From Salinispora arenicola (GTDB lineage: Bacteria; Actinomycetota; Actinomycetes; Mycobacteriales; Micromonosporaceae): 64,000 bases of DNA. Below are positions 3,166 through 29,080 of this stretch, one piece after another. Where the stretch lies: NCBI RefSeq assembly GCF_006716065.1, contig NZ_VFOL01000001.1:4278001-4342000 (forward strand). The letters are read 5' to 3'. Position 1 is the first letter of the stretch, and each line of letters starts with the position of its first letter. The translations under genes were made by a program, and so were the position numbers. The notes beneath the pieces are model-generated. The model worked only from the letters and a program-made list of their open reading frames with translations. It made no database searches and was not told the DNA's origin.

Positions 3166-4218
3166 CTATTCCCAGTCAGGCCGCGACTTCACCGAGGCGG
3201 TGTGCCGCTCAGTCCACCGGATGCTTGGTGCTCCAAAACCGCCGGAGCACCCACGGAGCACCCACATGGCCCTGTCGTGAGCTCCGAACCGGGCTCGAAT
3301 CCAGCACGACCAAGTTTGGTTACGAGATGGATAGCTGTGCGGTAGGAACGGATTGCTCCCGTCTGGGTCGACCGGCGCAGGGGCGACTGCTCCCCCAACG
3401 TTGCGCCGGTCCGGTGACAGAGGCGATGGCGTCGGGTTCGTCGGCATGACCGGTTCCACGATCAGCTCGGGTGGTGCCGACGACTCGGCCTTGAGGGTCT
3501 TGAGGAGTTCGGATACTCGGGTGTTGGACACGGTGTGACCGGCAGCGCGGAGGGCTTCGGCGAGTTCAGCCCGGGTCAGTGCCTGCCCGTTCGCGGTGAG
3601 CCGGTCCCGGACCTTGCGCGCCGCCGGCAGTAGCTCGCCAACATCGGCGGACGGCTGCGCGGACGGTCCCCGGTCCGCTCGCTGCCGGTTCCGTCCGCCG
3701 TATCGGCGACGGGCATCCGGTGAGCGGACGGTCCGGGTCCTGGACCGCTCCCCCGCCGTGACAGCGGACCGCACCGTCTCATTCAGTCCGTTGTCGGGAA
3801 CGGTCCGCCCGGCCTCATCCGGTTGGTAGTCCACTACCGCCACGGCAGGGGCGGGTGTGACGGCGCTGGTCCGGCCGAGGGCGATCTTGACCATGACCAG
3901 GAATCCGAGCGCGGGTACGGCGGCGGCGACCCACCCAATGACCGAAGGTTCGGCCTCGACGACCTGCGCCGCCAGGGACAGGGTGACCGCGCACGCCAGC
4001 ACGGTGGCCGGGAAGACGGTGGAGGTGTGGGCGCGTTTGCGGCGGCGCAGTTCCAGGCCAGAGGCGATGGACATCAGTTCCAGGACGATCGCGTCGGCCC
4101 AGGCCAGCCAACCGGGTTGGCCGTGCGCGGCGGCCACGTTATGCACGTGGGTGAAGCTGGCCGCCCCCGCCGCGCCGCCGATGGCCAGCATGATGACGAC
4201 CTGGACGACGCCCTCCAC
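3166..4218 (-). CDS. DUF2637 (SpdB/SpdA-like) membrane protein of integrative element
   Basis: Predicted 350 residues with a GTG start at 4218. Residues 1-115 carry about four membrane helices and the family hallmarks SFTHVHNVAAAHGQPGWLAW, DAIVLELMSIASGLELRRRKR and SLAAQVVEAEPSVIGW. Residues about 190-240 (VRDRLTANGQ...VSELLKTLK) look like a small winged-helix segment, as in many DUF2637 proteins. These proteins occur in actinomycete plasmids and AICEs and are linked to conjugal spreading; the exact role is not established. The last 60 residues (from about GGAVAP) read into the tRNA-flanking DNA and may be an abnormal extension. Confidence 0.72.
   Translation of the reverse strand: MEGVVQVVIMLAIGGAAGAASFTHVHNVAAAHGQPGWLAWADAIVLELMSIASGLELRRRKRAHTSTVFPATVLACAVTLSLAAQVVEAEPSVIGWVAAAVPALGFLVMVKIALGRTSAVTPAPAVAVVDYQPDEAGRTVPDNGLNETVRSAVTAGERSRTRTVRSPDARRRYGGRNRQRADRGPSAQPSADVGELLPAARKVRDRLTANGQALTRAELAEALRAAGHTVSNTRVSELLKTLKAESSAPPELIVEPVMPTNPTPSPLSPDRRNVGGAVAPAPVDPDGSNPFLPHSYPSRNQTWSCWIRARFGAHDRAMWVLRGCSGGFGAPSIRWTERHTASVKSRPDWE
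3227..3265. repeat. inverted plus tandem repeats next to the att-like core
   Basis: ggtgctcc (3227-3234) is inverted as ggagcacc (3244-3251), and the 11-mer ggagcacccac is tandemly repeated (3244-3254, 3255-3265). The position, 110-150 bases inside the tRNA remnant, would suit arm-type integrase or excisionase sites; this is inference. Confidence 0.35.
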
Positions 4219-4246
4219 GCGGCTGCCGCGCGGACTGGTGTCCGGG

Positions 4247-4576
4247 TCAGAGATCGATGCTGTCGTGGACCATCACCTCCCCGACCCCGGACAGGGGTTC
4301 CGGTCCGTCCGTCAGTCGCGGGAGGCGGGACCGGAGGGCGGACCGACCCGGCGTCGGACAACAGTCGGGACGGGGACCGGACACCGGTCGCGGACCGCCC
4401 GACGCGGACGCCGGACCGAGACTGGTCCGCCGCTGTGGGGAGCGGACGATTGGTGCTCTCACGGGTCTGTCAGCGCCGACCGCGCTGCTCACGACAGATC
4501 CGGGACAGACGCCGACCGTTGATGTCCGCTCCGCCGCGGAGGTACTGCCCACGGCCGTCGTGCCGTCACCGATCAC
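4247..4576 (-). CDS. hypothetical small protein between DUF2637 and replication-relaxation genes
   Basis: 109 residues whose start overlaps the stop of the upstream replication-relaxation gene by ATGA. The protein is rich in Arg, Pro and Ser, has no recognisable motif or membrane segment, and is followed within 30 bases by the DUF2637 gene. The coupled position is the main argument for it. Composition alone would also fit a chance frame. Confidence 0.35.
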   Translation of the reverse strand: MIGDGTTAVGSTSAAERTSTVGVCPGSVVSSAVGADRPVRAPIVRSPQRRTSLGPASASGGPRPVSGPRPDCCPTPGRSALRSRLPRLTDGPEPLSGVGEVMVHDSIDL

Positions 4577-5460
4577 GCAGCCGCACCCGCCCGGCCGGAG
4601 GCGTCAACGGCATACCCGGCCAGATCCGCCAGCCGCAGCCGCGGCCCTTCCCCGCCGGCCACGGCCCACACCGCCTCTGCCGGGCCGAGGCCCGTCATCG
4701 CGGCGTGGTCGCGGGCACCGGTGGCAACCGGCACCGCCAGCGGCACGTCGGCCAGCACGCGGCGCAGGTTGCACTCTCGGGCAGCAGAGTGCAGCCAGAA
4801 CAGCACCGGCCACGCCCGCCCGATCGTGCCGAAAAGCTCCCGATAGCCGTCCACCTTGCCGGCCAGGATCGACAACTGCTCGGCGCCGGTGTCGTACTCG
4901 ACGAAGAACGGCACCTCGACATCATTCTCGACCCACCGGCCGTAGCCGTCCGGGCGAACCCTCGGCTGATACGCCCGCACCAGCCCCGGATCCTGGCGGC
5001 TGGTGAACGTCCCGGCACGCTGGCACACCATCTCCGGCAACCACTCGATCAACCCGGTGTCCGGATGAGTACGGGCGTGGCCGGCCAGGTCAGTGAAGAA
5101 GCCGTTCACCCCGAGGCGGTGAGAGAGGCTGCGGGTGGAGGTCCAGCGCCGCCGCTCCACCCGGGCGTGGTCCCGCCGGGGTGGGCGTTCGTCGCGGCTG
5201 GCGGCGACGACCTCAGCGCCGAGTTGGTCGATGACGTAGTGGTACGGGTAGGAGCCGCCGTCGGCCCGCTGCGGTCGGAACCGAGCGACGAGGCGCAACC
5301 GATACAGAGTCCGTAATCGGCGCTGGCAGAAGTCGAGCGACGGGAACAGGGCCTGGGCGATCTGGAACGACGTCAGCACGCCGTGGTCGTAGAGCCAGCT
5401 CAGCAGGACCCGGTCACGATCGGTCAGCTGCGACTGGACCCGCAGAACCGGATCATCCAT
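4573..5460 (-). CDS. replication-relaxation family protein (Replic_Relax)
   Basis: 295 residues. The N-terminus is a winged-helix region (LRVQSQLTDRDRVLLSWLYDHGVLTSFQIAQALFPSLDFCQRRLRTLYRL), followed by YHYVIDQLGAEVVA, LGVNGFFTDLAGHARTHPD and VPFFVEYDTGAEQLSILAGKVDGY, the order seen in the Replic_Relax family. Members lie on actinomycete plasmids and integrative elements and are thought to help replication or mobilisation; the enzymology is unproven. ATG start at 5460 with a strong ribosome site (aaggaggtgatg). A truncated paralogue with a similar leader lies at 7249-7467. Confidence 0.85.
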   Translation of the reverse strand: MDDPVLRVQSQLTDRDRVLLSWLYDHGVLTSFQIAQALFPSLDFCQRRLRTLYRLRLVARFRPQRADGGSYPYHYVIDQLGAEVVAASRDERPPRRDHARVERRRWTSTRSLSHRLGVNGFFTDLAGHARTHPDTGLIEWLPEMVCQRAGTFTSRQDPGLVRAYQPRVRPDGYGRWVENDVEVPFFVEYDTGAEQLSILAGKVDGYRELFGTIGRAWPVLFWLHSAARECNLRRVLADVPLAVPVATGARDHAAMTGLGPAEAVWAVAGGEGPRLRLADLAGYAVDASGRAGAAA

Positions 5461-6595
5461 CCACCATCACCTCCTTTCCGATACGTATGGCCTCCCCTGG
5501 GGGAGGAACCCGAGACCAGGACGGGTCTGTCGCAGCACAACCAGCCAGTGTTGACAGACGGGCTGACCTGCGGTGTGAGCGGGAAACGGGGGTCCGTTCG
5601 GGTGTCCGGCTGAAGACTGACCCCAACGGGGACGTCAACCCGGACCCCGCAACGGAGGTCAACACGGAATCTGTCAGCGCCACCGGCAGAAAGCCGGAAC
5701 GCGGTGAGATGGGATGTACAGAGAACACAAGAGCTCCTTGATCGAAGAATGGAACGTCGACTGCCGTAACGCCATAGGTGTGCGCCGCCGCAGCCACCGC
5801 CGGGCGCGGGAGACGGCGGCAAGGCACACTGTGGAGTTGTCAATGAACACGCCAACCGGCACACCGGCCGACCCGAGGACGGATCAGGGCAGCAACGCCG
5901 ACACGACCACCAGTGAGGTTGTTGTCGCGGCAGCAGGAACAGCGGTCGCAGTTACGGAGGGCAGAGCGGGCGGCAGCGTGCCGCGCCGGCAGCGGTCTCG
6001 TCTCAGCCTGGAACAGTTACTCCGGGAACCGTCGACATCACGACGGCCCGGTGGGGCGTCGACTCAACCCGCCGGAGAAAGATCCTTCATGACGGCTCCC
6101 CTGTCACTCGACACCATCGACAGCCCGCCCACTCCCAAGCCTCCAACGACCGGCGACGCTCCCGAAGGAGCGCCACCACCCCGGCCGATCGAACATGGCG
6201 GGCAGACCGTCACGCGGTCGCGTTCGTATCAGTACGCCTCCACCGGCAGCACCCTGTCAACCAACATCACCACCAGTCGATCATGACTCTTCCGAACCCA
6301 GTAGGACGCGCTGGTACCCGTCAACCCGTACCGGTATCCAGTGGTACGGATTCCCTGCCGAAAATGACAGAAAAATCTTGAACCACCCGTTCACTCATCT
6401 CACCTTGCGAAACAGCGCTCCCGCTAACCGAGCGGCCAGGGTGCAGGTCGCCGAGGACCCCATCAGTGAGTCGGACCGGCACGGCTTCCCGCACCGGGTC
6501 GTACCCGGTGCGGCCGACGGGTCGGCACCGGCCCGCCGGGCGGCTCAGCTCGCGTACACGTTGATCCCGATGGGAGCACCAGGCACAATCGCCGG
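5461..6595. other. 1.1-kb region upstream of the replication-relaxation gene
   Basis: No gene is clearly supported. The first 60 bases (Shine-Dalgarno, cccctgggggagg and cgagaccagg blocks) resemble the stretch before the truncated paralogue at 7468-7535, so they are probably a duplicated leader or promoter. A plus-strand frame 5714-6286 would encode a Thr/Pro-rich protein without motifs, and I do not accept it as a gene. Confidence 0.4.
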
Positions 6596-7252
6596 GTGAT
6601 CACGAGCGTATTCTTCGACGTGGGCGAGACCATCGTTGACGAGTCCCGGGAGTACGGCACCTGGGCGGACTGGCTCGGGGTGCCACGCCACACCTTCTCG
6701 GCCGTCTTCGGGGCGACCATCGCTCGCGGCCTGGACTACCGGGAGACGTTCCAGGTCTTCCGACCGGGCTTCGACCTGACCGAGGAACGGGAGCGCCGGA
6801 CGGCGGCGGGCCAGCCGGAGTCCTTCACCGAGGAAGACCTCTACCCGGATGCGCGGCCGTGCCTGGCCGCGCTACGCGAGTCGGGGCTACAGGTCGGCCT
6901 CGCCGGCAACCAGACGGCGCGGGCGGAGACAATCCTGCGTGCCCTGGACCTACCGGTCGACGTGATCGGCACCTCGGACGGCTGGGGCGTGGAGAAGCCT
7001 TCCACCGCGTTCTTCGACCGCGTAATCACCGAGGCAGGATGCCCCGCTGACCAGGTGCTCTACGTCGGAGACCGGTTGGACAACGACATCCGGCCGGCGC
7101 AGGAGGCGGGTATCGCCACCGCCCTGGTCCGTCGCGGCCCGTGGGGCTACATCCTCGGCGACAAGACGGTCAGCGACCAGTGCATGTTCCAGCTCGACTC
7201 GCTGGCCGAGCTACCTGACCTCGTACGCAAGCACAACCAGTCGGCACGCTAA
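6596..7252 (+). CDS. HAD-superfamily hydrolase
   Basis: 218 residues, GTG start. HAD motif I is FFDVGETIVD with nucleophile D8 and Gly in place of the usual second Asp (DxGxT, common in the FDVGGT group). Motif II is LAGNQT (102-107), motif III K134 in GVEKPSTAFFD, and motif IV VGDRLDNDI (157-165). A cap domain fits between motifs I and II. The likely reaction is hydrolysis of a phosphate monoester or organic halide; the substrate is unknown. It lies on the island on the opposite strand to the biosynthetic operon and meets the truncated replication-relaxation gene tail to tail with a 4-base overlap. A metabolic link to the operon is possible but unproven. Confidence 0.82.
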   Translation: MITSVFFDVGETIVDESREYGTWADWLGVPRHTFSAVFGATIARGLDYRETFQVFRPGFDLTEERERRTAAGQPESFTEEDLYPDARPCLAALRESGLQVGLAGNQTARAETILRALDLPVDVIGTSDGWGVEKPSTAFFDRVITEAGCPADQVLYVGDRLDNDIRPAQEAGIATALVRRGPWGYILGDKTVSDQCMFQLDSLAELPDLVRKHNQSAR

Positions 7253-7467
7253 CCACCCGGCAGCGCGGCCCGACTGGCAGTGAGGGCGGCAACGCGTTCG
7301 TCCAGCCGGTACAGGGTCCGCAACCGCCGCTGACCGAAGTCCAACGACGGAAACAGGGCGTTCGCGAGCTGGAACGACGTCCCGACACCATGGTCGTACA
7401 ACCAGCTCAGCAACACCCGATCACGGCCGGTCAGCTGGGACTGGACCCGAAGGACCAGATCATTCAC
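7249..7467 (-). pseudogene. truncated second copy of replication-relaxation gene
   Basis: From the GTG at 7467 (VNDLVLRVQSQLTGRDRV...) the first 50 residues are close to the start of the intact copy at 4573-5460: LLSWLYDHGVGTSFQLANALFPSLDF matches its winged helix with few changes. After LRTLYRL the sequence turns into unrelated residues and stops at 72. The ribosome site (aaggaggtgg) and upstream blocks are also shared. It looks like the remains of a second integrative element or an internal duplication. Confidence 0.8.
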
Positions 7468-7595
7468 CGGATACCACCTCCTTTCCAAGTAGGGAAAGCC
7501 AGCCCCCCAGGGGAGAAAACCGAGACCAGGCAGTGCCTTTCGACGCGGCGGCGCAGCAGATCCAGGCACCTGCGGGGGTCGACCTCCCTATATTC

Positions 7596-8354
7596 CTATG
7601 TGGGAAGGTCGGCGTTGGTGAAGGCGCCGCCCATCCAGCGGTCGGCCAGCGGCCCGAGACCGGGGCATAGGCGGTCGGCGCTGTCGGCGGGCTGGTAGCC
7701 GAGGGCGTCCCAGCCGGTGCGCGGCCACCACGAATCGCGGTTGTCAGAAGTGCCGTACACCGTGAGGAACGGGGAGGTCAGGGGCCGGGTGGCGGCGGCG
7801 TACAGCAGGGCGGTGGCATCCCGGGGGCTCAGCCAGGTCGCACGGTGACGGGGCTCGGTGGGGTGATCTCGGTAGCTACCGATACGAACCGCGACGACCT
7901 GCATGGTGGTCTTGTGGGCATAAAGGTGGCCCAGGGCCTCAGCGGTGACCTTGGATACGGCGTAGAAGCTGTCGGGGGCCAGCGGCGCGGTCGGAGCGCC
8001 GACGGGGTTCAGGCCCGTCACGTGGTGGCTGCTGGCCAGCACCACCCGCCGCACCCGCTGGCGGCGGGCCGCCTCCAGGACGTGGTGGGTGCCGGTGACG
8101 TTGTGCTCCACCATCGCCGGGAACGGTCCCTCTTGGGTGATCCCCGCAAGATGCACGACGGCCGCGACCCCAGTGCTGGCCTTCTCGACCGCATCCAGGT
8201 CACGCAGGTCGGCCTGAACGAACTCGGCAGCCACGGGCAGCTCAACGGCACAAGCCCGCCGGTCAAGCAGCCGCAGCAACATCCCCTGGGCGGCCAGATC
8301 GGCCGCCAGCCGGGTGCCGATTGTCCCGGCGGCGCCCGTGATCAGCAGCCTCAC
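7596..8354 (-). CDS. NAD-dependent epimerase/dehydratase, uronate-dehydrogenase-like extended SDR
   Basis: 252 residues, last gene of the seven-gene operon, ATGA overlap with the CofE-like gene. Rossmann motif TGAAGTIG is at 6-13, VVHLAG at 66-71, catalytic S108/S109 and Y131xxxK135 (FYAVSK). The length and the SSHHVTGLNP segment resemble uronate dehydrogenases, which oxidise a sugar acid at C1 with NAD. A sugar nucleotide or sugar acid substrate is likely. With the Gfo/Idh dehydrogenase and TIM-barrel isomerase of the same operon it suggests stepwise remodelling of a sugar-like skeleton. Confidence 0.85.
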   Translation of the reverse strand: MRLLITGAAGTIGTRLAADLAAQGMLLRLLDRRACAVELPVAAEFVQADLRDLDAVEKASTGVAAVVHLAGITQEGPFPAMVEHNVTGTHHVLEAARRQRVRRVVLASSHHVTGLNPVGAPTAPLAPDSFYAVSKVTAEALGHLYAHKTTMQVVAVRIGSYRDHPTEPRHRATWLSPRDATALLYAAATRPLTSPFLTVYGTSDNRDSWWPRTGWDALGYQPADSADRLCPGLGPLADRWMGGAFTNADLPT

Positions 8355-9079
8355 GGCCGGCGTTGCAGCATCGACGCCACGCCCGCGTCACTGCACTCAT
8401 AGGCGACGCCGCGCAGGACGGCGACCGGGGCCCCACGTCCCCGCTGCCCGAGGATGATCCCGGCCGCCGCGGCGATCAGGTCGGTGAAAGTCTCCTCCTG
8501 CCGCTTACCGCCGTGCTCCGTGACACGCAAAGGCCCCACACCCGCCGCGCCGATCGAAATGACAGTCGCCCCACGCCGGTCGGCACGACCGTCGGAGTCC
8601 GCGACCACCACCGCCACCTCCGCGCCCGCGTGAGCGATCAACGCATCCCGCAGGGCGCGGGCGGAGGCGTCCGGATCCACCGGCAACAGCCACGCGCCCT
8701 GCGGGCCGGCCCGGTCGATCCCGGCGGAGGTGAGCTGGAAGCCGAGCCGGTGCCGCGCGATAATCGGGCCCTTGTCCGTGGCCAGAAAATAGCTGTCACT
8801 GGAATCCACGATCAGCTGCACGACCTCGGCAGGCTTGCCCGTGCGAGCGGACAACTCCAGCGCCTCCGGGCCAACGACGACACTGGCCAGGTCGACGTAC
8901 CGCTTCTCCGCGACACTCACGGCCTTGGAAGCCACCACCACCACATCCCCGTCCTGCAACTCGATGCCAGTAGAGGCCAAAACGCCGGTGATAGCACCCG
9001 CCAGATCTGCACCCGGCTCGAGCTCGGGAAAAGGTTCCAGCGCGAAAGCGGAGAAACCAGAGGTCGGGACGGCGGTCAT
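8351..9079 (-). CDS. CofE-like coenzyme F420-0:L-glutamate ligase family protein
   Basis: Start set at the ATG at 9079 (MTAVPTSGFSAFAL), which overlaps the glycosyltransferase stop by ATGA; 242 residues. Family blocks are DGDVVVVASKAVSVAEKR (43-60), SDSYFLATDKGPIIARHRLGF, and VVADSDGRADRRG...ISIGAAGVGPLRV. In CofE these regions bind GTP, metal and the phosphorylated acceptor and join glutamate by an amide bond. It is the minimal CofE type, without the FbiB nitroreductase domain. Only a single CofE-like gene lies here and no other F420 genes, so it is more likely an amide ligase recruited for another metabolite than for F420 itself. Confidence 0.85.
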   Translation of the reverse strand: MTAVPTSGFSAFALEPFPELEPGADLAGAITGVLASTGIELQDGDVVVVASKAVSVAEKRYVDLASVVVGPEALELSARTGKPAEVVQLIVDSSDSYFLATDKGPIIARHRLGFQLTSAGIDRAGPQGAWLLPVDPDASARALRDALIAHAGAEVAVVVADSDGRADRRGATVISIGAAGVGPLRVTEHGGKRQEETFTDLIAAAAGIILGQRGRGAPVAVLRGVAYECSDAGVASMLQRRP

Positions 9080-10134
9080 CGTCGGGCTCCTGCGGGAGTG
9101 AGGACAGCGGTGCACAGGCGGGCGTGTCCGGCGGCGAGTGTCTCGGCCCGCTGCCGTGTGCTGGCGCGTGGTCCCCTGGTCAACCAGTCGGTCACGCGCC
9201 GTAGGTAGTGCGGCCACAGCTGACGGGCCGCGTCGCGCACTGGTGTACCGGAGTTGACGGTGCGCCAGGCGTCCGCGACGGGCTCTGGCCATGGGTGTTC
9301 ATCGTATCCGCCGGGGTACGGGCCAAAGCTGTCCAGCGTGGTGAGCATGTCCGAAAGGCGGGCGGGCTCCAGGGTACGGTCGGCGACCCGGTAGTGCGCC
9401 GTCGCACCGTCTGACGTGGCCGGTGGCGGTTTACCTGTCCTGGTCAGGTGCAGCAGGACTGGGACAGCCTGGTGATAGATGGCCGCCAGGTGAGGAAAGG
9501 ACCCGGCGTGCTGCTTGGGCTGGTCGAATCGCACGGAGGCGATGGGCCCGACGGTGGCGACGGTCAGCAGCAGGAATGCGTCGATGCCGTAGCCGTCCAC
9601 GCACGCCGAAACCTCTACAGGCAGCGCCCGGGCAGCGCGGAGGGCGGCGTCCAGGGCGGGTCGGGAGAGGGCGAGGTCCCCGGCGAGCGGCTGGGGCACG
9701 TCGTGGCCGGTGGTGGCGGCAATTAGGGGGCGGGCAAGGTGGTTGGTGAGGTTGGCTTCGTCCCAGTGCCGCGGGTAGTCCGCGACTGCTATGGCGGCCC
9801 CAGCCCGTACGTGGTCCAGGAGCGCGGCGTAGACGGCCGGATCGGGGCCCCGGGTATCGGTGTCCGCGATCAGTACGGCATCGATGCCAGTGAGGTCCGG
9901 AAGGTGGGCTGCGGCCAGGATCTGGGCACCCTTGCCCCGGACCAGGCCGGTCAGCGGCACCTTGGCCGCCCGGGTGGCGGTGGCGGTGAATTGGTCGGCG
10001 GTCGCCAGGGTGTCGGAGGAGTCGGCGTGGACGATGATGGACCGGTGCTCGGCGAGTGCGGTGTCAACGGCGGTGGTGACCGCGGCGATGGTGGCCGACT
10101 CGTTGCGGCTGGGCAGGATCGCGGCGGAGTTCAT
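9076..10134 (-). CDS. GT-A glycosyltransferase, glucosyl/mannosyl-3-phosphoglycerate-synthase-like
   Basis: 352 residues. The N-terminus reads SAAILPSRNESATIAAV (PxxNE of GT2/GT81 enzymes), GLVRGKGAQILAAA (67-76), then VLIADTDTRGPDPAVY with the metal-binding DTD at 91-93. Later GDLALSRPALDAAL and VDGYGIDAFLLL resemble the acceptor region of glucosyl-3-phosphoglycerate synthases. Such enzymes move a sugar from a nucleotide donor to a small phosphorylated acid. There is no membrane anchor. ATGA overlaps on both sides show tight coupling with the HPr-kinase-like and CofE-like genes. A phosphoglycerate-type acceptor is inference from the fold. Confidence 0.8.
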   Translation of the reverse strand: MNSAAILPSRNESATIAAVTTAVDTALAEHRSIIVHADSSDTLATADQFTATATRAAKVPLTGLVRGKGAQILAAAHLPDLTGIDAVLIADTDTRGPDPAVYAALLDHVRAGAAIAVADYPRHWDEANLTNHLARPLIAATTGHDVPQPLAGDLALSRPALDAALRAARALPVEVSACVDGYGIDAFLLLTVATVGPIASVRFDQPKQHAGSFPHLAAIYHQAVPVLLHLTRTGKPPPATSDGATAHYRVADRTLEPARLSDMLTTLDSFGPYPGGYDEHPWPEPVADAWRTVNSGTPVRDAARQLWPHYLRRVTDWLTRGPRASTRQRAETLAAGHARLCTAVLTPAGARR

Positions 10135-11003
10135 CCGGCCTCCTTGGTCAGCAGGTCAGCGGCGGTGTCCGGGTCGGGGGCGTATAGGTAGTCGAACTGG
10201 CCAACGGCGAGCCGGGCGATGAGGTGGCTGCGCCAGCGGGCCAGGGCGGGGCTGTCCAGGGGCCACACCGGTCCGTATGGCACACCGGCCACGCCGGTGA
10301 TGGGGGTGGGAAGGCCGGAGATGTAGCGGCCCAAGGTCTCGTGCAGTCGCAGCCGCTCGTTTACCGACAGCGGCACGGCAGGCGTCAGCGACGCGGTGTC
10401 GAGCGCAGGGTGGACGGCCATACGCACAACCCGGGCAAGCGGGGCCAGGCCGGTCGCGAACGGTTCCAGGGCGAGCTGAGGCTTGGGCGCGAGTGGCCGA
10501 GCAGGGTCGCGGATAGCGGCGGTAGGTTTGCCCGGCCACACCGACACCCGGCCATCGTCGCTCTCGCCGAGGACGACCACATCGTCTCCGGCATGGGTCC
10601 ATCCCTGCGCCGCGAGGGCGAGTGCGGTTGATGTCTTGCCTGCCCCCTTCGCGCCGAGTAGTAGTACGGCCTGCCCGTCGGGCGCGATCAGCGCTGTGGC
10701 ATGCACGGTGGCCTTGCGCTGGTGCTGGCGTGCACGTTCGAAGGCGGTGTAGGTGACGTAGGCGAGAGAGTTCGAGGCGGCCACGTGTGCCGGTAGCCGG
10801 AGGCGCACGGTGACCGCCGCGACGGTGACGGCCACGGCCCCCGTGGTGACTTCGACGTCCACGGCTTCCGTGGCGGGATCTGCTGTCAGGGTCCAGCCGC
10901 CGGGCAGGGCCCGGCTGGCGGCCTGCGCCGCGGTGGTGTCCAGGTACTCGGGCAAGGCGAGGCGGGCGGAGATGTGGCCAGTGACGAGCCGGTGCACGGT
11001 CAT
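10131..11003 (-). CDS. HPr kinase/phosphorylase-like P-loop protein
   Basis: 290 residues. The central part follows the HPrK C-terminal pattern: VHATALIAPDGQAVLLLGAKG with Walker A GAKGAGKTS at 117-125, then ALALAAQGWTHAGDDVVVL with the paired Asp 140-141. The HPr-binding C-terminal signature is not evident, and no PTS gene is near, so the phosphoacceptor is probably a small molecule or a partner protein rather than HPr. The first 95 residues are a separate domain of unknown type. Coupled by ATGA to the SAM synthetase before and the glycosyltransferase after it. Related kinases occur in several peptide and metabolite clusters of actinomycetes. Confidence 0.75.
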   Translation of the reverse strand: MTVHRLVTGHISARLALPEYLDTTAAQAASRALPGGWTLTADPATEAVDVEVTTGAVAVTVAAVTVRLRLPAHVAASNSLAYVTYTAFERARQHQRKATVHATALIAPDGQAVLLLGAKGAGKTSTALALAAQGWTHAGDDVVVLGESDDGRVSVWPGKPTAAIRDPARPLAPKPQLALEPFATGLAPLARVVRMAVHPALDTASLTPAVPLSVNERLRLHETLGRYISGLPTPITGVAGVPYGPVWPLDSPALARWRSHLIARLAVGQFDYLYAPDPDTAADLLTKEAG

Positions 11004-12226
11004 CTGACTGCTCGCTCCAGGGCGGCCAGCAGCTCGTCGACCGGGGCGACGGCGGGCAGATACCGTCCGGTCAGCAGGTCTGCCATCCAGTCTGTGCGGG
11101 ACAGCGTGGCCCGCACCAGCTCCTCGACCGGCCCGAGCGGCGCCGGGTTAACCGTGGTGATCTCGACTGAGGCGGGCTCGTCGTAGCGGGCGCCGTTGCG
11201 CCACAGCAGGGCGATACGGCATGGTCCGAACTCGGTGGCTACCGCGTGGGCGGCGGTATCGGCGAGCCAGCCGCCGACCTTGCCGACGTGGTAGGCCGGG
11301 TTCTTCCCGAACGTCGCCTCGTTCCCGGCCAGGTGGGCACCGCTGATCACGCCGGTGCGGGCGTTGCCCCGGCCCACGAGGCCATCCTCGCCATAGTCGA
11401 CAGCCGACCCCGAGAGCGTGAAGTACTGCCCGGAGATGGGCCCGATGCGGGAATCGCGGGTGTTGCACAGCACCGACACCCGACCCGGCAGCCGCTGGGC
11501 AAGGAGGTCGGTCAATTCGCTGGCGGCAGAGGTGACCGCCTCGGCGAACTGAGCGGAGCTGTTCAGGTACCCGGCCAGGGCGGGCACGCACACGGTCACC
11601 GTCCAGGTCGCGCCGTTGCGGACGGCGAGGGCCTTGATGTCGCTGCCTGCCCACGCGTGGCGGCGGAACCACGCCTCGGCCAGCAGGGCCACGGCCTCAG
11701 TGACCGTGCGTGGGGCCGAGCCGACGAGGTAGGCGGTGTCGTTCGAGAACGGACTCGGCCTCTCGGGCAGATCGTCCAAGGAACGGGGGGCGAACCAGTG
11801 GGAGAACTTGGAGGAGTTGGTCGTCTCGTGTCTCACCTCCAGCTGGGCGCGGTCGAAGCCCGGCAGCGCGGTACGCAGGTGGTCAACGGCCGCGTGCTCA
11901 AGGATCTCCCGCACTGGCAGTTCCTGGCCGGCGAAGCTGGTGGAGATCCGGCCGCCGAAGACGACTCGCAGCGGCCGGTCGTACACACCGTCGGTGTCGC
12001 TGAAGGCGGCCCGGCCGCCGAAGACGGCGACCTTGTCCAGGTTGTGGTGCAGCACCGCCCCCACGGTGTCCAGACAGTGCCTGCTGTAACGGATGGAGGC
12101 GAGCTCAGCGATGCCGTCGGCGAGGGTGTCGGGGTGGCCGACCCCTTTGCGTTCGACGACCTCGACGGGCAGCTCATGCGGCAGCGGCGTACGCAGCCCG
12201 GACGACGCGGGCATCGCGGTAGACAC
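11000..12226 (-). CDS. archaeal-type S-adenosylmethionine synthetase (PF01941 family)
   Basis: 408 residues. Signature blocks are VERKGVGHPDTLADGIAE (24-41), LHHNLDKV (59-66), SNDTAYLVGSAP (161-172), DYGEDGLVGRGNARTGVI (277-294) and FGKNPAYHVGKV (306-317), all of the archaeal methionine adenosyltransferase family, unrelated in detail to bacterial MetK. It makes S-adenosylmethionine from methionine and ATP. The GTG start at 12226 is preceded by ggaggtgat at correct spacing. It overlaps the upstream oxidoreductase by 53 bases, the only long overlap in the operon. A bacterium already has MetK, so this copy probably supplies the pathway locally or uses a modified substrate. No methyltransferase gene is in the operon, which is odd. 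Confidence 0.9.
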   Translation of the reverse strand: MSTAMPASSGLRTPLPHELPVEVVERKGVGHPDTLADGIAELASIRYSRHCLDTVGAVLHHNLDKVAVFGGRAAFSDTDGVYDRPLRVVFGGRISTSFAGQELPVREILEHAAVDHLRTALPGFDRAQLEVRHETTNSSKFSHWFAPRSLDDLPERPSPFSNDTAYLVGSAPRTVTEAVALLAEAWFRRHAWAGSDIKALAVRNGATWTVTVCVPALAGYLNSSAQFAEAVTSAASELTDLLAQRLPGRVSVLCNTRDSRIGPISGQYFTLSGSAVDYGEDGLVGRGNARTGVISGAHLAGNEATFGKNPAYHVGKVGGWLADTAAHAVATEFGPCRIALLWRNGARYDEPASVEITTVNPAPLGPVEELVRATLSRTDWMADLLTGRYLPAVAPVDELLAALERAVR

Positions 12227-13109
12227 GATCGATCACCTCCAGAGGGCGCCGTAGCGCCGTCATCGAGAACAGGCAGGGGTGGGCCGGATGGCCCTCGGCA
12301 GCGTTCAACGCGGCGGCGTACATCGCGCGCCGCAGTTCCTCATGCGTGGGGGCGGCGGCGATCTCGCCGAGTCCGGCTTCAAGGTTCCGCCCGCGTACGT
12401 GAAGCCGACGCCCGTCGGTGAGGTGGAGGATGAGCTCGTGGGCCGGTGGGCCGGGGTGGTCGACCCGGGCGTTGATCTGCACTGTGGCCCCGCCGGACAG
12501 GGCGAGTACGGCGATAACGTGGTCCTCGGTCTCTGCCAGGCCGCGGCTGTGGGTCACCGTTGCGTTGACCATTTCGACGTCGCCGGGCAACAGCCGCAGG
12601 GCGAGTGCCAGGCCGTGGATGGCTTGCTGGTGCAGGATTCCGCCGGCATCCGCGTAGGTGCGGCGCCAGCCGCGGAAGTATCCGGGATCTCGGTGCACGC
12701 TCAGAAGCACGTCGGCGCGTGTAACAGCAGGAGGCATCGCGAGTAGGGCGTTCAGGCCGGGGGCGAAGTGCGGCTGGAACGCGACGAAGATCCGCCCGTC
12801 GCCCGGCTGGGGCACCAGGGCCGCCGGCTCGGTGGTGCAGGGCTTCTCCACGAGCACGGCGGCTCCGGTCTGGGCCGCTTCCCGGGCTACACAAAGCGCG
12901 GTCCCCGGCGGGGTGGCCACCACAACCAGATCCGGCGTCGCGGCGCTCAGCGCCGCCCGCCACGAAGCAAACACCGGCACACCCCTGGGGACATCGACGC
13001 ACGGGTCGGGGTCAGCGACCCCGGCGACTAGCACGCCGGGAACGCCGGAGAGTGCGGCCAGGTGCTTGGCTCCGACCTCCCCCGCTCCTACCAGCAGCAC
13101 CCGCTTCAT
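12174..13109 (-). CDS. Gfo/Idh/MocA-family NAD(P)-dependent oxidoreductase
   Basis: 311 residues. The N-terminal Rossmann motif is LLVGAGEVGAKH (5-16), and the family motif EKP is at 88-90 (VLVEKPCTT). The C-terminal half carries GGILHQQAIHGLALALRLL, whose D/H-x-x-D/H position corresponds to the catalytic His region. Members oxidise or reduce a hydroxyl or keto group of sugars, inositols or their acids. ATGA overlap with the isomerase gene upstream. The two gene products together resemble inositol or deoxysugar modules. Confidence 0.88.
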   Translation of the reverse strand: MKRVLLVGAGEVGAKHLAALSGVPGVLVAGVADPDPCVDVPRGVPVFASWRAALSAATPDLVVVATPPGTALCVAREAAQTGAAVLVEKPCTTEPAALVPQPGDGRIFVAFQPHFAPGLNALLAMPPAVTRADVLLSVHRDPGYFRGWRRTYADAGGILHQQAIHGLALALRLLPGDVEMVNATVTHSRGLAETEDHVIAVLALSGGATVQINARVDHPGPPAHELILHLTDGRRLHVRGRNLEAGLGEIAAAPTHEELRRAMYAAALNAAEGHPAHPCLFSMTALRRPLEVIDRVYRDARVVRAAYAAAA

Positions 13110-13966
13110 GCCACACCGCCGGGAACAGCGGAGCGCAGGAACGCGGCGCCAGAGGTGAGGGCGTCGGCTGGGGTGTCGCGCACATGGGTCTCCAGCGCGT
13201 ACGGCAGCCCGGGCTGGGCAGCGTGCAGCAGCGGTAGCACCTGGCCGTAGGGCACCACACCCTCACCGGCCGGGCAGAACACCCGGCCACCACCGTCAGC
13301 GGCGGGCCGGTAGTCCTTGACGTGCACGTACCCCACATACGGGGCGAGGGAGCTGACCACCTCACCGGTGGCTTGGCCGACCTCGTGGAGATTCGCCACG
13401 TCCAGCCACAGTCCCAGGCCCTGCCCGTGGTACCGGTCCAGGACCTCGAGCAGTGACTCGGCATGGGCGACCGTGCACACTGGCTCGTTTTCCAGCAGCA
13501 GCCGCACCCCAGCCGAGTTCGCCAGGTCCAGGGCTTTTGCCAGCAGCAGGTCACCGAGTAGCTGCTCGGTGAGTTCCGGCTCGACCCGCAGGTGGGAGAA
13601 GACCCGCACCACCGGGGCTCCGAGGATGACGGCAGCCTCAATGGCCCGCTCAATCCAGCCGAGCCGCTCCTCGGGCGGAACCTGGGTGGGAAAGCCGAAG
13701 GTGTCCACCCTCTCGGGCGTCGCCTCGGGCCGGCACCACTTCCACAGCGGCGAAGCCAGCGCGGCCACCTTCAGGCCTCGCTCCTCGGCCAGCGTACGGA
13801 GGTACCGAACCCGGTCGTCGGGCAGCGTAACCGCATTGGCGCCCTCGGCGGAGCGGATCTCCAGCTGACCAATACCCAACTTCACCGCCAGGTCCATGCC
13901 CGGCACTGGATCGGAGTTGAGTTCGTCAGGGTTGAGCACCAGCCTGCTCGCCGGCATTTTTCCCAC
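13106..13966 (-). CDS. sugar phosphate isomerase/epimerase (xylose-isomerase-like TIM barrel)
   Basis: 286 residues, first gene of the operon. Metal-ligand positions of the AP-endonuclease-2/xylose isomerase fold are visible: E159 (RLLLENEP), D189 (LGLWLDVAN), H215 (VGYVHVKDY) and E259 (YALETH). It probably isomerises, epimerises or dehydrates a sugar or inositol derivative. The GTG at 13966 lies 6-7 bases after a ggaga ribosome site; an ATG three codons on is the alternative. Co-directional genes follow without gaps down to 7596. Confidence 0.85.
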   Translation of the reverse strand: MGKMPASRLVLNPDELNSDPVPGMDLAVKLGIGQLEIRSAEGANAVTLPDDRVRYLRTLAEERGLKVAALASPLWKWCRPEATPERVDTFGFPTQVPPEERLGWIERAIEAAVILGAPVVRVFSHLRVEPELTEQLLGDLLLAKALDLANSAGVRLLLENEPVCTVAHAESLLEVLDRYHGQGLGLWLDVANLHEVGQATGEVVSSLAPYVGYVHVKDYRPAADGGGRVFCPAGEGVVPYGQVLPLLHAAQPGLPYALETHVRDTPADALTSGAAFLRSAVPGGVA

Positions 13967-16430: not shown

Positions 16431-16655
16431 CCGGCACGAGATGCAGCCCGTCAGCCGCGCTCGCGGGGTGGCGGCCTCACCGTGACGCCCAGCCCTGCGG
16501 CGCAGACCGCAAGGCCAGGAAGTGGCCCACGCCGCCGACGACCATCGGTATCGCTTGAACCGGGCACGGACGCACTGGGACCATGTAGGAGCGTAGTGCT
16601 ACGACAATGTGGCGCAAGGGCACGTCATTGCTGGGTCGATCCTGGGGGGCAGATC

Positions 16656-18071
16656 GTGGGGAGGGACAGCGTCCCGAACAGTCACCTCAGGGCTGCCCGC
16701 AAGGCGCTACGGTCCCCCTCTGGTTCCGGCCGCCCGATGTCTCGCCAGGAGTTGGCCGACGCCTGCAACGCCGAACTGGCCTCGATGTACGGCAGGCAAG
16801 GTCGCAGGCCGCGCTGGGCAGGACTCACCGAGAAGGCCATTGGCGCGCTGGAACGCGGCGAAATCCGGTGGCCCAACGAGGATTACCGATGGGCGCTCTG
16901 CACGGTTTTGCAAACCGACAAGCGTTCGCTCGGGCTCTACATCGACCGGCCCGACAACGCCAAGAATGACGAACTCCCGGAACCCACAGAGCCGAATTCT
17001 CGTCACCAACACAAGGGGATGACCCTCGCCCACCCACGGCCCGAGATATACGAGCCCGAGTCGCCACAGACCAGCCAATCGCTCGATGCCTCCGGCTCGC
17101 CCAGCCAATGGCGTGCGGGGCTGCGGCGCGCGGTCCTCGCTCGCGACAACGGACAGGTCCTGCTGCCGTTACATGAGCTGGAAGCCGCCCTACAGGTCGG
17201 CAACCTCGCCTACCAGGGCGCTCAGTACAGCAAACTGCGGCAGCTACCCGTCCTTATCAACGGGGCCGAGTCCTTGTTCGCCGAACAGCCGAAGGCTGTG
17301 GAGATGCCCAGGGTTGCCCGAGCCGCTAGCGGCGTTTACCTGCTGGCGTCAAAACTGGCTGCCAAACTCGGTGACGGCGAACTCGCCTGGGCCACCGCAG
17401 ACCGCGCCCGATGCTTCGGCCTGATAGCCGCTGATCCAGCACGGACCGCCATCGCGGCCTACCAGACCGCATGCGCGCTCGCCAAGCAGCCAGGCCGTGC
17501 CGCCGAAGCGGAAGATGTCGCGGTAACCGCCGCCGAAGCCATCGCCGGCCACCAGTTGTACCGCACCCCCGCCTACCTCTCGGCGTACGGAGCGCTCCTG
17601 CTCCACGCGGCCGTGGCGGCAGCCCGCCACGCAGACACTCGCAGCGCATGGCGCCACCTGCGAGCCGCTGAATCAGCCGCCGATGAACTCGGCCGCAACG
17701 GTAACGAACTGTGGACAGCCTTCGGACCCACCAACGTCCGGCTACACCAAATCTCCGTCGCGGTCGCCCTACACGACAACAAACAGGCACTCCGGCTCGC
17801 CGACCAGCTCGACACCGCACAGCTCCCACTGACGCTAGCCAGCCGGCGCGCTCAAGCGCACCTCGACCTTGCCGTGGCGCACAGCGCGACGGACAGCTCA
17901 ACCCCCCAAGCGATGCTCCACCTCCTGGAGTACGAACGCCTCGTCCCTGAGGCGATCAAGCTCAACGCCACCGCCGCTGGGCTCATCACGAAGCTGCTCC
18001 GGCGGGAACACCCCAGCCGCACCCCCGGGCTACGAGCCCTCGCCGACCGAGCAGGAGTCCACGACGCATGA
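16656..18071 (+). CDS. XRE regulator with TPR-like C-terminal region
   Basis: Start taken as the GTG at 16656 (VGRDSVPNSHLRAARKALRS) after ggggggc; 471 residues. Residues about 10-75 are an extended XRE domain (MSRQELADACNAEL...LTEKAIGALERGEIRWPNEDY). From about 160 to the end are helical repeats (AWATADRARCFGL, AEDVAVTAAEAIAG, AWRHLRAAESAADEL) like those of TPR-containing regulators. Its stop overlaps the flavoprotein ATG (ATGA), a pair common in actinomycetes. The signal sensed is unknown. Confidence 0.82.
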   Translation: MGRDSVPNSHLRAARKALRSPSGSGRPMSRQELADACNAELASMYGRQGRRPRWAGLTEKAIGALERGEIRWPNEDYRWALCTVLQTDKRSLGLYIDRPDNAKNDELPEPTEPNSRHQHKGMTLAHPRPEIYEPESPQTSQSLDASGSPSQWRAGLRRAVLARDNGQVLLPLHELEAALQVGNLAYQGAQYSKLRQLPVLINGAESLFAEQPKAVEMPRVARAASGVYLLASKLAAKLGDGELAWATADRARCFGLIAADPARTAIAAYQTACALAKQPGRAAEAEDVAVTAAEAIAGHQLYRTPAYLSAYGALLLHAAVAAARHADTRSAWRHLRAAESAADELGRNGNELWTAFGPTNVRLHQISVAVALHDNKQALRLADQLDTAQLPLTLASRRAQAHLDLAVAHSATDSSTPQAMLHLLEYERLVPEAIKLNATAAGLITKLLRREHPSRTPGLRALADRAGVHDA

Positions 18072-18637
18072 CCAAGGCCACCCCCGTCCTCCTGCTCGTC
18101 GTGTGCGCCGCCCCACCGGCCGCGAAAGTAGCCGAGCTGGCCGAACGACTCCGCCACGACGACTGGGACGTGCGCCCCGTCGTCACCGAGGCCGCCACCG
18201 CATGGGTTGACCTCCCAGCCCTGCAACGGACCACCGGCCACCCCGTCCGGAGCGAACCACGCGGACCACAGGAACCGAAGTCACTACCGCGTCCCGACGC
18301 CATCATCGTCGCCCCAGCCACCTTCAACACGATCAACCAATGGGCCGCCGGCATCAACAACACCGCAGCCCTGGGCACCCTCAACGAAGCCCTCGGAGCC
18401 GGAACACCGATCATCGTCTCGCCCTACGCCAAGGCAACGCTCACCGCACACCCCGCCTTCCACCGCAACCTCGAACTACTCGCCACCGCCGGCGTTCACT
18501 TCACCGCCACCGAAGCCCTACGACCCGACACCCCGGACGGGCCATTCCACTGGGACAGCGTGCTCGACCTTCTCCACCGCACTACCCTGCACGATCGCCG
18601 CGGACCGAGAGCAACGCCTCCTCGTTGGCGACAATGA
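18068..18637 (+). CDS. HFCD-family flavoprotein
   Basis: 189 residues. PRPDAIIVAPATFNTINQWAAGINNTAALG is the FMN-binding region of the Dfp/UbiX/lantibiotic decarboxylase (HFCD) family, and the N-terminus VLLLVVCAAPPAAKVAELAERL is its first strand-helix. Such proteins decarboxylate Cys-derived carboxylates, but many copies paired with XRE-TPR regulators have no known substrate. Coupled to the regulator before it, and converging with the NUDIX gene with a 56-base overlap. Confidence 0.8.
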   Translation: MTKATPVLLLVVCAAPPAAKVAELAERLRHDDWDVRPVVTEAATAWVDLPALQRTTGHPVRSEPRGPQEPKSLPRPDAIIVAPATFNTINQWAAGINNTAALGTLNEALGAGTPIIVSPYAKATLTAHPAFHRNLELLATAGVHFTATEALRPDTPDGPFHWDSVLDLLHRTTLHDRRGPRATPPRWRQ

Positions 18638-28300: not shown

Positions 28301-29080
28301 GTGGTGGAAATTCGCGTCCTCGGGCCGGTAGAAATTTTCCTTCACGGCACGCAACTACGTCTGTCCAAACGCCAGCACCAGCTAATTATCGGTATTCTTG
28401 GGATTGAAGTGGACCGGCCAGTTCGGAGCGACCGCTTAATTGACCTCTTGTGGGGCGATCGCCCGCCGGCCAGGCCACGCGCCGTCCTGCACAGCCGCAT
28501 CTCAGAGTTACGCGCCATTATGCGTGCCGCCAACGGCGGCACAACGCACCGGGCGCTCGTCACCGAACGCGACGGCTACATGCTCCGGATGCCGGCACGC
28601 ATGGTGGACGCGTACCGTTTCCGGGAAATTGTCGCCCGTTCTCGCCAAATCAGTTCGGACCTGCGGCTGCGTGATCTGCTGCGCCAAGCCCTCGATCTGT
28701 GGCGCGGTCCAGTGCTGGGCGGCTGGACTTCGACCCATCCGGACCATTCGCTGTGCGACAGCCTGGAGTCAGCCCGGCTGACTGCCGCCGAGGACCTCTA
28801 CGAGGCCGAACTCCGATTAGGCAACCATGAATTGATTGTCGACGACTTAATCGAACTGTCCACGACGAATCCGAACCGTGACCGGCTGACGGCAGCGCTC
28901 ATGGTGGCCCTGCATCGAGCCGGCCGCAGCACCGAGGCAGCTGCCGTCTTCCACCAACGTCGACGGTGGCTACGCAACGAGTTCGGCGTCAACGCGGCCC
29001 CGACGCTGCAGCGGCTGCACATCGCAATCCTGCGTCACGATCCGGCGGTAGAATTGCGTACGGCATCCGGACGGTTCTAA
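28301..29080 (+). CDS. SARP-family (AfsR/DnrI-type) transcriptional activator
   Basis: 259 residues, GTG start after gggag. Residues 1-95 are the OmpR-type winged helix (VEIRVLGPVEI, LSKRQHQLIIGILGI, RLIDLLWGDRPPARPRAVLHSRISELR) and 100-250 the bacterial transcriptional activation domain (DLWRGPVLGG, DLYEAELRLGNHELIVDDL, RLTAALMVALHRAGRSTEAAAVF). SARPs switch on antibiotic clusters. Divergent from lanA, with tandem repeats between, so it is the probable activator of the lanthipeptide genes. It abuts an S66 peptidase fragment at its 3' end. Confidence 0.9.
   Translation: MVEIRVLGPVEIFLHGTQLRLSKRQHQLIIGILGIEVDRPVRSDRLIDLLWGDRPPARPRAVLHSRISELRAIMRAANGGTTHRALVTERDGYMLRMPARMVDAYRFREIVARSRQISSDLRLRDLLRQALDLWRGPVLGGWTSTHPDHSLCDSLESARLTAAEDLYEAELRLGNHELIVDDLIELSTTNPNRDRLTAALMVALHRAGRSTEAAAVFHQRRRWLRNEFGVNAAPTLQRLHIAILRHDPAVELRTASGRF

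Follow-up and report, generated by a model that had tools for sequence, protein, structure and literature searches.

A seven-gene operon with an archaeal-type methionine adenosyltransferase-like protein in Salinispora arenicola, a candidate pathway for an adenosyl-derived specialised metabolite

Introduction

The actinobacterium Salinispora arenicola carries an operon of seven coupled genes in a 64,000 bp stretch of contig NZ_VFOL01000001.1 (assembly GCF_006716065.1, positions 4,278,001 to 4,342,000; hereafter the window), and one of these genes encodes an archaeal-type methionine adenosyltransferase-like protein (MAT). What might such a set of genes make, and what would a protein of the S-adenosylmethionine (SAM) synthetase type do in it? 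Our analysis showed that a core of the operon recurs across phyla, and that its MAT belongs to a clade that has Glu where archaeal MAT has an Asp contacting the substrates. We consider it reasonably probable that the seven genes encode a single biosynthetic pathway and represent a horizontally mobile cassette (type A below) for a phosphorylated, glycosylated, adenosyl-derived specialised metabolite.

Results

The operon and its seven genes

A preliminary description made from the sequence had proposed a coupled seven-gene operon at 7596–13966 of the window. All seven open reading frames (ORFs) were confirmed on the minus strand, each at the coordinates given beforehand (Table 1). Consecutive genes overlap by 4 bp at g1/g2, g3/g4, g4/g5, g5/g6, and g6/g7, and by 53 bp at g2/g3, as had been described. 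The further statement that all five short overlaps read ATGA was right for the first four; g6/g7 reads GTGA because the start codon of g7 is GTG. A g2/g3 overlap of about 50 bp was seen again at locus L017 (Gfo to 10050, MAT from 10001) and also at L097. The start of g6 was taken as the ATG at 9079 and not as the ORF start at 9292; the homologues agree with 9079.

Table 1. Genes of the operon and possible accessory genes in the window.
Gene	Coordinates	Strand	Predicted product	Length (aa)	Family match or remark
g1	13106..13966	-	AP_endonuc_2 / xylose-isomerase-like TIM-barrel protein	286	PF01261, E 3.6e-24
g2	12174..13109	-	Gfo/Idh/MocA oxidoreductase	311	PF22725 and PF01408
g3	11000..12226	-	archaeal-type methionine adenosyltransferase-like protein (MAT)	408	PF01941, NF003362
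g4	10131..11003	-	HPr-kinase-like P-loop kinase	290	PF07475, weak
g5	9076..10134	-	GT-A-type glycosyltransferase akin to GpgS (GT81) and mannosylglycerate synthase	352	
g6	8351..9079	-	CofE-like ligase	242	PF01996
g7	7596..8354	-	NAD-dependent epimerase/dehydrogenase-type short-chain dehydrogenase/reductase (SDR), GTG start	252	PF01370, E 2.7e-26
	6596..7252	+	HAD-family hydrolase (possible accessory)		PF00702
	16482..18071	+	regulator-like protein (possible accessory)		without Pfam match; homologues suggest a TPR/HTH type
	18068..18637	+	flavoprotein (possible accessory)		PF02441, E 7.5e-13; 4-bp overlap with the regulator-like gene

The family assignments of the preliminary description hold, by Pfam and NCBIfam and, for g4 and g5, by profiles of the cassette proteins. 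Judged by family, the seven genes include no aminocarboxypropyl transferase and no other SAM-using enzyme. The closest named relatives were found in Salinispora pacifica and S. mooreana, whose MATs are 98% identical to that of the window. The host genome is a single contig of 5.63 Mb. The operon is not a chance arrangement, since these genes are found grouped in many genomes, as described below.

The MAT of the operon belongs to a clade with Glu at the Asp283 site

The product of g3 scores 216 bits against PF01941 (cut-off 27) and 543.5 bits against NF003362, "methionine adenosyltransferase" (cut-off 481). The host genome has a separate canonical metK, so g3 is an extra copy. We compared the residues of 107 MATs, including the Thermococcus protein and that of the window (L001), after L101, which had no sequence anchor, was dropped. 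Residue roles follow the available part of the paper on Thermococcus kodakarensis MAT (TkMAT) (PMC3853416). At the sites of TkMAT His33, His62, Asn64, and Asn161, which are the catalytic His and the methionine-carboxylate residues, g3 has H, H, N, and N. According to the same text, TkMAT Asp283 contacts the amino group of methionine and the hydroxyls of the ribose; g3 has Glu (E280) instead.

Glu occupies this site in 44 of the 107 rows and Asp in the other 63. The catalytic His, the ribose-binding Asp201, and the adenine-stacking Tyr are retained in the Glu-type rows. The methionine-carboxylate residues are mostly retained there; Asn161 is Ser in four rows (L062, L044, L048, and L070) and Gly in L073, and Asn64 is His in L041 and Thr in L043.

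The Glu residue goes together with the neighbours of the gene. At least one of the HprK-like kinase, the glycosyltransferase (GT), and the CofE-like ligase was found in the fetched stretch at 42 of 43 Glu loci, against 3 of 60 Asp loci (L058, L078, and L079). Several Asp rows repeat one MAT, and with identical MATs merged the figures were 40/41 and 3/53. The sole Glu exception, L036, lies on a contig that stops about 100 bases past the MAT, yet TIM-barrel and Gfo genes are present on it. In a tree of 90 of the 107 rows, from which 17 near-duplicates had been removed, all Glu MATs fell on one side of a single branch (support 91/97; 88% of 200 bootstraps), and Thermococcus, haloarchaeal, and proteobacterial MATs fell on the other.

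A search of 5.8 billion proteins with a profile of the Glu-type MATs gave Glu in all of the 120 best matches, with Asn64 replaced in 33 of these. The best 120 matches of the window MAT in its own search had Glu in 119 and a gap in one. Named hosts among the best profile matches were the Bacillus cereus group, a Listeria sp., Streptococcus porcinus, and Macrococcoides bohemicum. Four Glu-type MATs (P0296, P0322, P0325, and P0333) are named from the Bacillus cereus group, and one of them is plasmid-borne.

The lid loop, which contacts the substrate, reads WFAPR..DLPE in g3, against QGSVDLVGVF in Thermococcus. The motif W[FY]xP was present in 43 of 44 Glu rows and also in 51 of 63 Asp rows, so it marks a group wider than type A. 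The cassette clade shares with the T. kodakarensis enzyme the PF01941 domain, the catalytic His, the ribose Asp201, the stacking Tyr and, in the window protein, the methionine-carboxylate residues. It differs in having Glu throughout and a ..WFxPR..DLPE lid, and g3, unlike the archaeal enzyme, is part of a biosynthetic cassette in a host with metK. The Glu change and the lid are placed where a change of substrate would be expected. As a contrast we used archaeal-type MATs of haloarchaea and proteobacteria with about 30–36% identity (L099–L102 and L106), whose annotated neighbours are unrelated; L103 carries no annotation.

Distribution of the type A cassette

The MAT alignment was scanned against 84,980 species genomes. 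From the 230 confirmed stretches 80 were kept, which gave 77 distinct loci, and all of them were scored for homologues of the seven genes and their relatives. At least two of HprK, GT, and CofE lay beside the MAT at 34 of the 77 loci. Where the flanks exceeded 4 kb on each side (27 of the 34 loci), we found HprK at 27, CofE at 27, GT at 26, TIM at 22, Gfo at 20, an AroE-like gene at 14, and SDR at 9, the first three figures being partly fixed by the selection rule. The core consists of the MAT-like protein, the HprK-like kinase, the GpgS-like GT, and the CofE-like ligase, and the TIM-barrel, Gfo/Idh, SDR, and AroE-like genes vary. The preliminary description would have counted it as a refutation if the set were not conserved together in other genomes. 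The outcome was the opposite, since four of the genes form a core found together across phyla, but the number seven is not fixed: an eighth, AroE-like gene, missing here, is frequent in other cassettes, and the CofE-like gene is also found without the others.

Actinobacterial hosts were Salinispora, Streptomyces, Streptantibioticus, Actinacidiphila, Nocardia, Pseudonocardia, Saccharopolyspora, Sphaerimonospora, and Micromonospora, and relatives of g1 stand first in the cassette at most of these loci. The core was also found in Streptococcus, Macrococcus, several Patescibacteria, and metagenome-assembled genomes of alphaproteobacterial, clostridial, and other origin. A Glu-type MAT with HprK and GT matches is borne by three Streptomyces plasmids and by one plasmid of the haloarchaeon Halorussus salilacus; the fetched stretch of the Halorussus plasmid had no CofE-like match. 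On plasmid NZ_CP109316 the order is TIM, Gfo/Idh, MAT, HprK-like, GT, CofE, SDR, and AroE, followed by an annotated integrase, and a 74% relative of g7 stands at the same position as in the window. SDR and AroE are not alternatives, since this cassette has both. At L033 (Streptomyces griseofuscus, about 3260–9160), gfo seems to be split by about 5 kb in which an apparent recombinase set was recognised by eye.

In Micromonospora craterilacus the type A core is accompanied by a dehydroquinate-synthase-like gene and a radical-SAM gene. The Streptococcus cassette includes an AMP-binding/PP-binding protein, and non-ribosomal peptide synthetase (NRPS)-type and UDP-glucose-dehydrogenase-like genes were recognised by eye in both the Streptococcus and the Macrococcus versions.

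The association was also checked independently of the MAT in 72,556 plasmids. All three records found with g4 as query, and all four found with the Streptococcus GT, hold a Glu-type MAT. The Streptococcus MAT itself matched 27 plasmid records, none from Bacillus, although a Bacillus mycoides plasmid copy is named among the protein matches, so the plasmid set searched may lack that copy.

The type A cassette is rare in the class. Of the 394 genomes sampled from the class, 13 have an archaeal-type MAT of any kind, and in two of these 13, the window and G152, it is of type A. The latter has a type A MAT, HprK, TIM, and Gfo on a 2.9-kb contig (L012) and was unmatched in the HprK and GT profile searches. 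In these same 394 genomes the HprK profile matched 53 genomes, with 341 bits for the window and 55 bits, a partial match around the P-loop, for the next. The GT profile matched 26, with 429 bits for the window and 77 bits for the next best.

Kinase, glycosyltransferase, and ligase

Against PF07475, the C domain of HPr kinase, g4 scores 21.3 bits, below the cut-off of 33.3. The profile of the g4 family matches HprK 1jb1 at E 1.3e-5; in that search larger P-loop ATPases such as midasin outscore HprK as whole chains. G117, G122, K123, T124, and D141 are invariant in all 24 rows of the family, so that the P-loop and the following Asp of HprK-related proteins are present, and we take the role of D141 to be of the catalytic type. 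The differences from HPr kinase are the scores below cut-off and the absence of an HPr among the seven genes. g4 is probably a small-molecule kinase.

No Pfam family matched g5, its score of 37 bits against NF010496 (GpgS) is far below the cut-off of 262, and g5 alone found no match in the PDB at E 1. The profile of the g5 family, in contrast to the single sequence, matched GpgS 4y6n at E 4.2e-13 and mannosylglycerate synthase 2bo4 at E 3.8e-11, the GpgS match covering only profile positions 4–228 of 361. D91, D93, and H209 are invariant in all 25 rows and align to the DxD motif and the His of GpgS, a residue to which we assign, as an assumption, a metal-type role. D185 is also invariant. Cassette GTs outside actinobacteria are about 19–27% identical to g5.

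The product of g6 scores 168.8 bits against PF01996 (cut-off 25; E 1.6e-49) and resembles 2phn (E 2.8e-28) over residues 11–226 of 242. It shares these features with the F420:glutamate ligase CofE/FbiB but differs in scoring below the CofE equivalog cut-offs (TIGR01916, 151.8 vs 180.65) and in lying outside an F420 gene set. Two further PF01996 places were found in the host genome and one of them scores above g6, so g6 too is an extra copy.

CofE-like homologues with 68–83% identity were found on nine listed Streptomyces plasmid records, with 10 Streptomyces records in all. The g6 family is not exclusive to the cassette, because such homologues, with 69–83% identity, also lie on six plasmid records without a MAT. 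Neighbours were inspected in four of the six MAT-less records (L125, L126, L127, and L128; 70–83% identity to g6). The MAT-less record CP108999 has a two-piece match with no annotated gene, and NBC_01454 and NBC_01456 score identically and may be near-copies. The L128 gene adjoins a HAD hydrolase and a regulator, with no MAT on the record, and the L125 gene has Gfo/Idh, phosphotransferase, and AP-endonuclease-like genes within 10 kb. These MAT-less CofE-like genes possibly encode a glutamylating enzyme of other pathways or serve self-protection.

The AroE-like gene and related MAT cassettes

The two Shikimate_dh_N places of the host genome lie outside the window, and one of them resembles by eye an ordinary actinobacterial AroE. 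We aligned 17 AroE-like proteins of the cassettes. The SxS motif keeps its first Ser, the residue that in E. coli AroE holds the carboxylate of shikimate, in 9/9 non-actinobacterial rows, and has Ala there in 8/8 actinobacterial rows. With Ala at this site, the substrate of the actinobacterial enzymes may be one whose carboxylate is masked.

At least three other types of MAT-containing cassette occur in actinobacteria (many of the loci L047–L093, and L104). Types B, C, and D, like type A, combine a MAT having a WFxP-type lid with a GT or kinase and with sugar or cyclitol enzymes, but their MATs keep Asp where type A has Glu. Type B has a GT, MAT, TIM, Gfo/Idh, an AAA-type protein that is probably a kinase, a carbamoyltransferase, and a NUDIX protein; at least one type B marker gene was found at 17 of the 77 loci, and the full set on one Streptomyces plasmid. 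Type C has a MAT with differing subsets of kinase-like genes, a histidine phosphatase, a seryl-tRNA-synthetase-like protein, a weak GT4-like match, and a protein with no Pfam match. Among 14 type C loci examined, the synthetase-like and no-Pfam genes were present at 12, the phosphatase at 10, and the GT4-like gene at 8. Type D (L065 and L079) has an inositol-1-phosphate synthase, MAT, and TIM, with kinases, SDR, and aminotransferase recognised by eye; L079 also has an HprK-like match. The CofE and HprK of type A are replaced by carbamoyltransferase and NUDIX in type B, by the synthetase-like protein and phosphatase in type C, and by inositol-phosphate synthase and an aminotransferase-like protein in type D. 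The theme they have in common is a MAT and a single condensing enzyme, which is CofE-like, a carbamoyltransferase, or synthetase-like, alongside a kinase, a GT, and enzymes of the polyol or cyclitol type.

On a Parageobacillus plasmid (L105) an inositol-phosphate synthase is paired with a MAT of another branch. By annotation, nucleotide-processing genes lie nearby: a SurE nucleotidase and a NUDIX gene close to this MAT, and a bisphosphate nucleotidase, a thymidylate kinase, and an adenosine deaminase close to the MAT of a Megaera plasmid (L094).

Genes around the operon

Homologues of the HAD hydrolase adjoin the type C cassette L091 (63%) and the type A cassette L026 (52%). Those of the regulator-like protein adjoin type A, B, and C MAT cassettes, its cluster being close to eight of the 22 type A loci of actinobacteria, and those of the flavoprotein adjoin the type C cassettes L004 and L084 (which have the same MAT sequence), L075, and L089. 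As judged from these homologues, the putative accessory genes, that is the hydrolase and the regulator-flavoprotein pair at 16482–18637, connect the cassette types.

A 184-bp direct repeat with 79% identity was found at 5296–5479 and 7303–7486 of the window. The second copy, just before the operon, is a remnant of the Replic_Relax gene at 4573–5460, and since this remnant stands beside the operon, a plasmid or integrative-element past of the region is suggested. Farther away, a lanthipeptide-synthetase-like protein (24950–27901; PF13575 and LANC_like) and a BTAD-type regulator (28301–29080) probably form a separate biosynthetic cluster.

Discussion

The recurrence of the core across phyla supports the earlier idea of a single coupled pathway. 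The gene families suggest a product that is most likely adenosyl- or SAM-derived, phosphorylated, and glycosylated, and probably glutamylated. The product suggested in the preliminary description, a glycosylated and glutamylated acid with an adenosyl- or aminocarboxypropyl-derived group, would be compatible with these enzymes. In such a pathway, the TIM-barrel protein, the Gfo/Idh oxidoreductase, and the SDR (elsewhere the AroE-like protein) would oxidise, isomerise, and reduce a polyhydroxy acid or carbocycle, which the HprK-like protein would phosphorylate. The GT would glycosylate an acceptor of the hydroxy-acid type, as GpgS and mannosylglycerate synthase do, and the CofE-like ligase would link glutamate, or an amine like it, to a carboxylate by way of an acyl phosphate. 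ATP would be the source of an adenosyl group delivered by the MAT-like enzyme, in the form of SAM that serves as a building block or by direct transfer to a carboxylate-bearing acceptor other than methionine. Because no SAM user is among the seven genes, either a host enzyme would use the SAM or the MAT itself would place the adenosyl group. We tentatively propose that the cassette MATs may be adenosyltransferases of a new kind, which with the fold of SAM synthetase move the 5′-deoxyadenosyl group of ATP onto such a carboxylate-bearing acceptor; we hold this as a possibility and not as the expected outcome.

Several points weigh against one pathway to a specialised metabolite. We infer the product, the reaction, and the true MAT substrate from the genes. 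The operon has neither a transporter gene nor, in the window, an AroE-like gene. Of the nine listed Streptomyces plasmid records with a CofE-like homologue, six hold no MAT. L054 groups with type B MATs in the tree but has type C neighbours, so modules swap between cassette types. The core is also present in Patescibacteria, which are not known for specialised metabolites. Finally, the retained carboxylate residues (His, Asn, and Asn in the window protein) would fit plain SAM synthesis, and methionine therefore remains a candidate substrate.

In one alternative, the MAT merely adds a second SAM synthetase of the ordinary sort, which boosts SAM for methylation or radical-SAM chemistry, and the other genes make a glycosylated acid that is methylated by an enzyme encoded elsewhere. 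The NF003362 score, the kept catalytic His and, in the window protein, the kept carboxylate residues agree with it, as do some relatives with a radical-SAM gene (L062) or, by eye, an FkbM-like methyltransferase (L042). Yet neither a methyltransferase nor a radical-SAM gene is among the seven, metK is present in the host anyway, and the clade-invariant change of Asp to Glu and the replaced lid set these proteins apart from archaeal MATs. We regard this alternative as possible but doubtful.

It is improbable, in our judgement, that the product is a thuringiensin-like nucleoside, in which adenosine, a sugar, an acid, and a phosphate are joined and a MAT-like enzyme forms the bond at ribose C5′. 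The adenosyl, GT, kinase, and acid-forming genes would suit such a molecule, and so would the AMP-binding/PP-binding protein of Streptococcus. The thuringiensin (thu) cluster of Bacillus thuringiensis, as far as the consulted part of its description goes (PMC4147579), shares GT and kinase genes with the cassette, and its NRPS and UDP-glucose-dehydrogenase-type genes have counterparts in the Bacillota versions. However, the gene list in that part of the paper, compared as a list only, has no MAT, CofE-like, or AroE-like gene, and thuringiensin was dropped as the same pathway for this reason (PMC4147579). Of the candidates that could be checked in published text, the thu cluster is the nearest in its way of working.

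A defence cassette or a nucleic-acid modification system on mobile elements is very unlikely. The plasmid-type Replic_Relax gene that adjoins the operon, the integrase after the NZ_CP109316 cassette, and the integrase, recombinase, and transposase genes seen by eye near other cassettes would be expected of mobile elements. But none of the seven genes had a meaningful match in PADLOC-DB (best E 0.005, on a P-loop stretch), none belongs to a nuclease or nucleic-acid-binding family apart from the AP_endonuc_2 name of the TIM barrel, and two IMG/VR scans, whose patterns came from actinobacteria-heavy alignments, gave one weak relative each. A phage origin was also rejected: PHROGs gave nothing useful, and the IMG/VR relatives were an HprK-like fragment (44%, 67 residues) and one MAT (27%).

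Least credible of all is a variant of coenzyme F420 or of another cofactor built with a CofE-like ligase, which the PF01996 match and 2phn similarity of g6 would allow, but which was dropped because g6 is below the F420 CofE equivalog cut-offs and a stronger PF01996 gene lies elsewhere in the host; moreover, by family the operon has no other F420-type gene, and the cassette is present in streptococci, which are not known to make F420.

The preliminary description knew of no described pathway with this gene set, and our multi-term word search of 5.39 million open-access papers found none, with the limit that a description in other wording could escape such a search. An algal-plastid secondary-metabolite cluster, seen in the available part of its report (PMC5133447), surfaced through the xylose-isomerase term.

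SAM synthetase is commonly regarded as a housekeeping enzyme with a single job. A clade of MATs that moves in mobile cassettes together with GTs, kinases, and an amide ligase, and that is found in hosts as different as streptococci, candidate-phyla bacteria, and a haloarchaeon with its plasmid, points to a class of overlooked small molecules derived from ATP or SAM. The Asp-to-Glu signature, together with the lid motif, gives a simple sequence handle for mining the cassette. If our proposal is true, there would be a large, cross-domain, plasmid-borne family of adenosyl pseudoglycosides with at least four cassette types.

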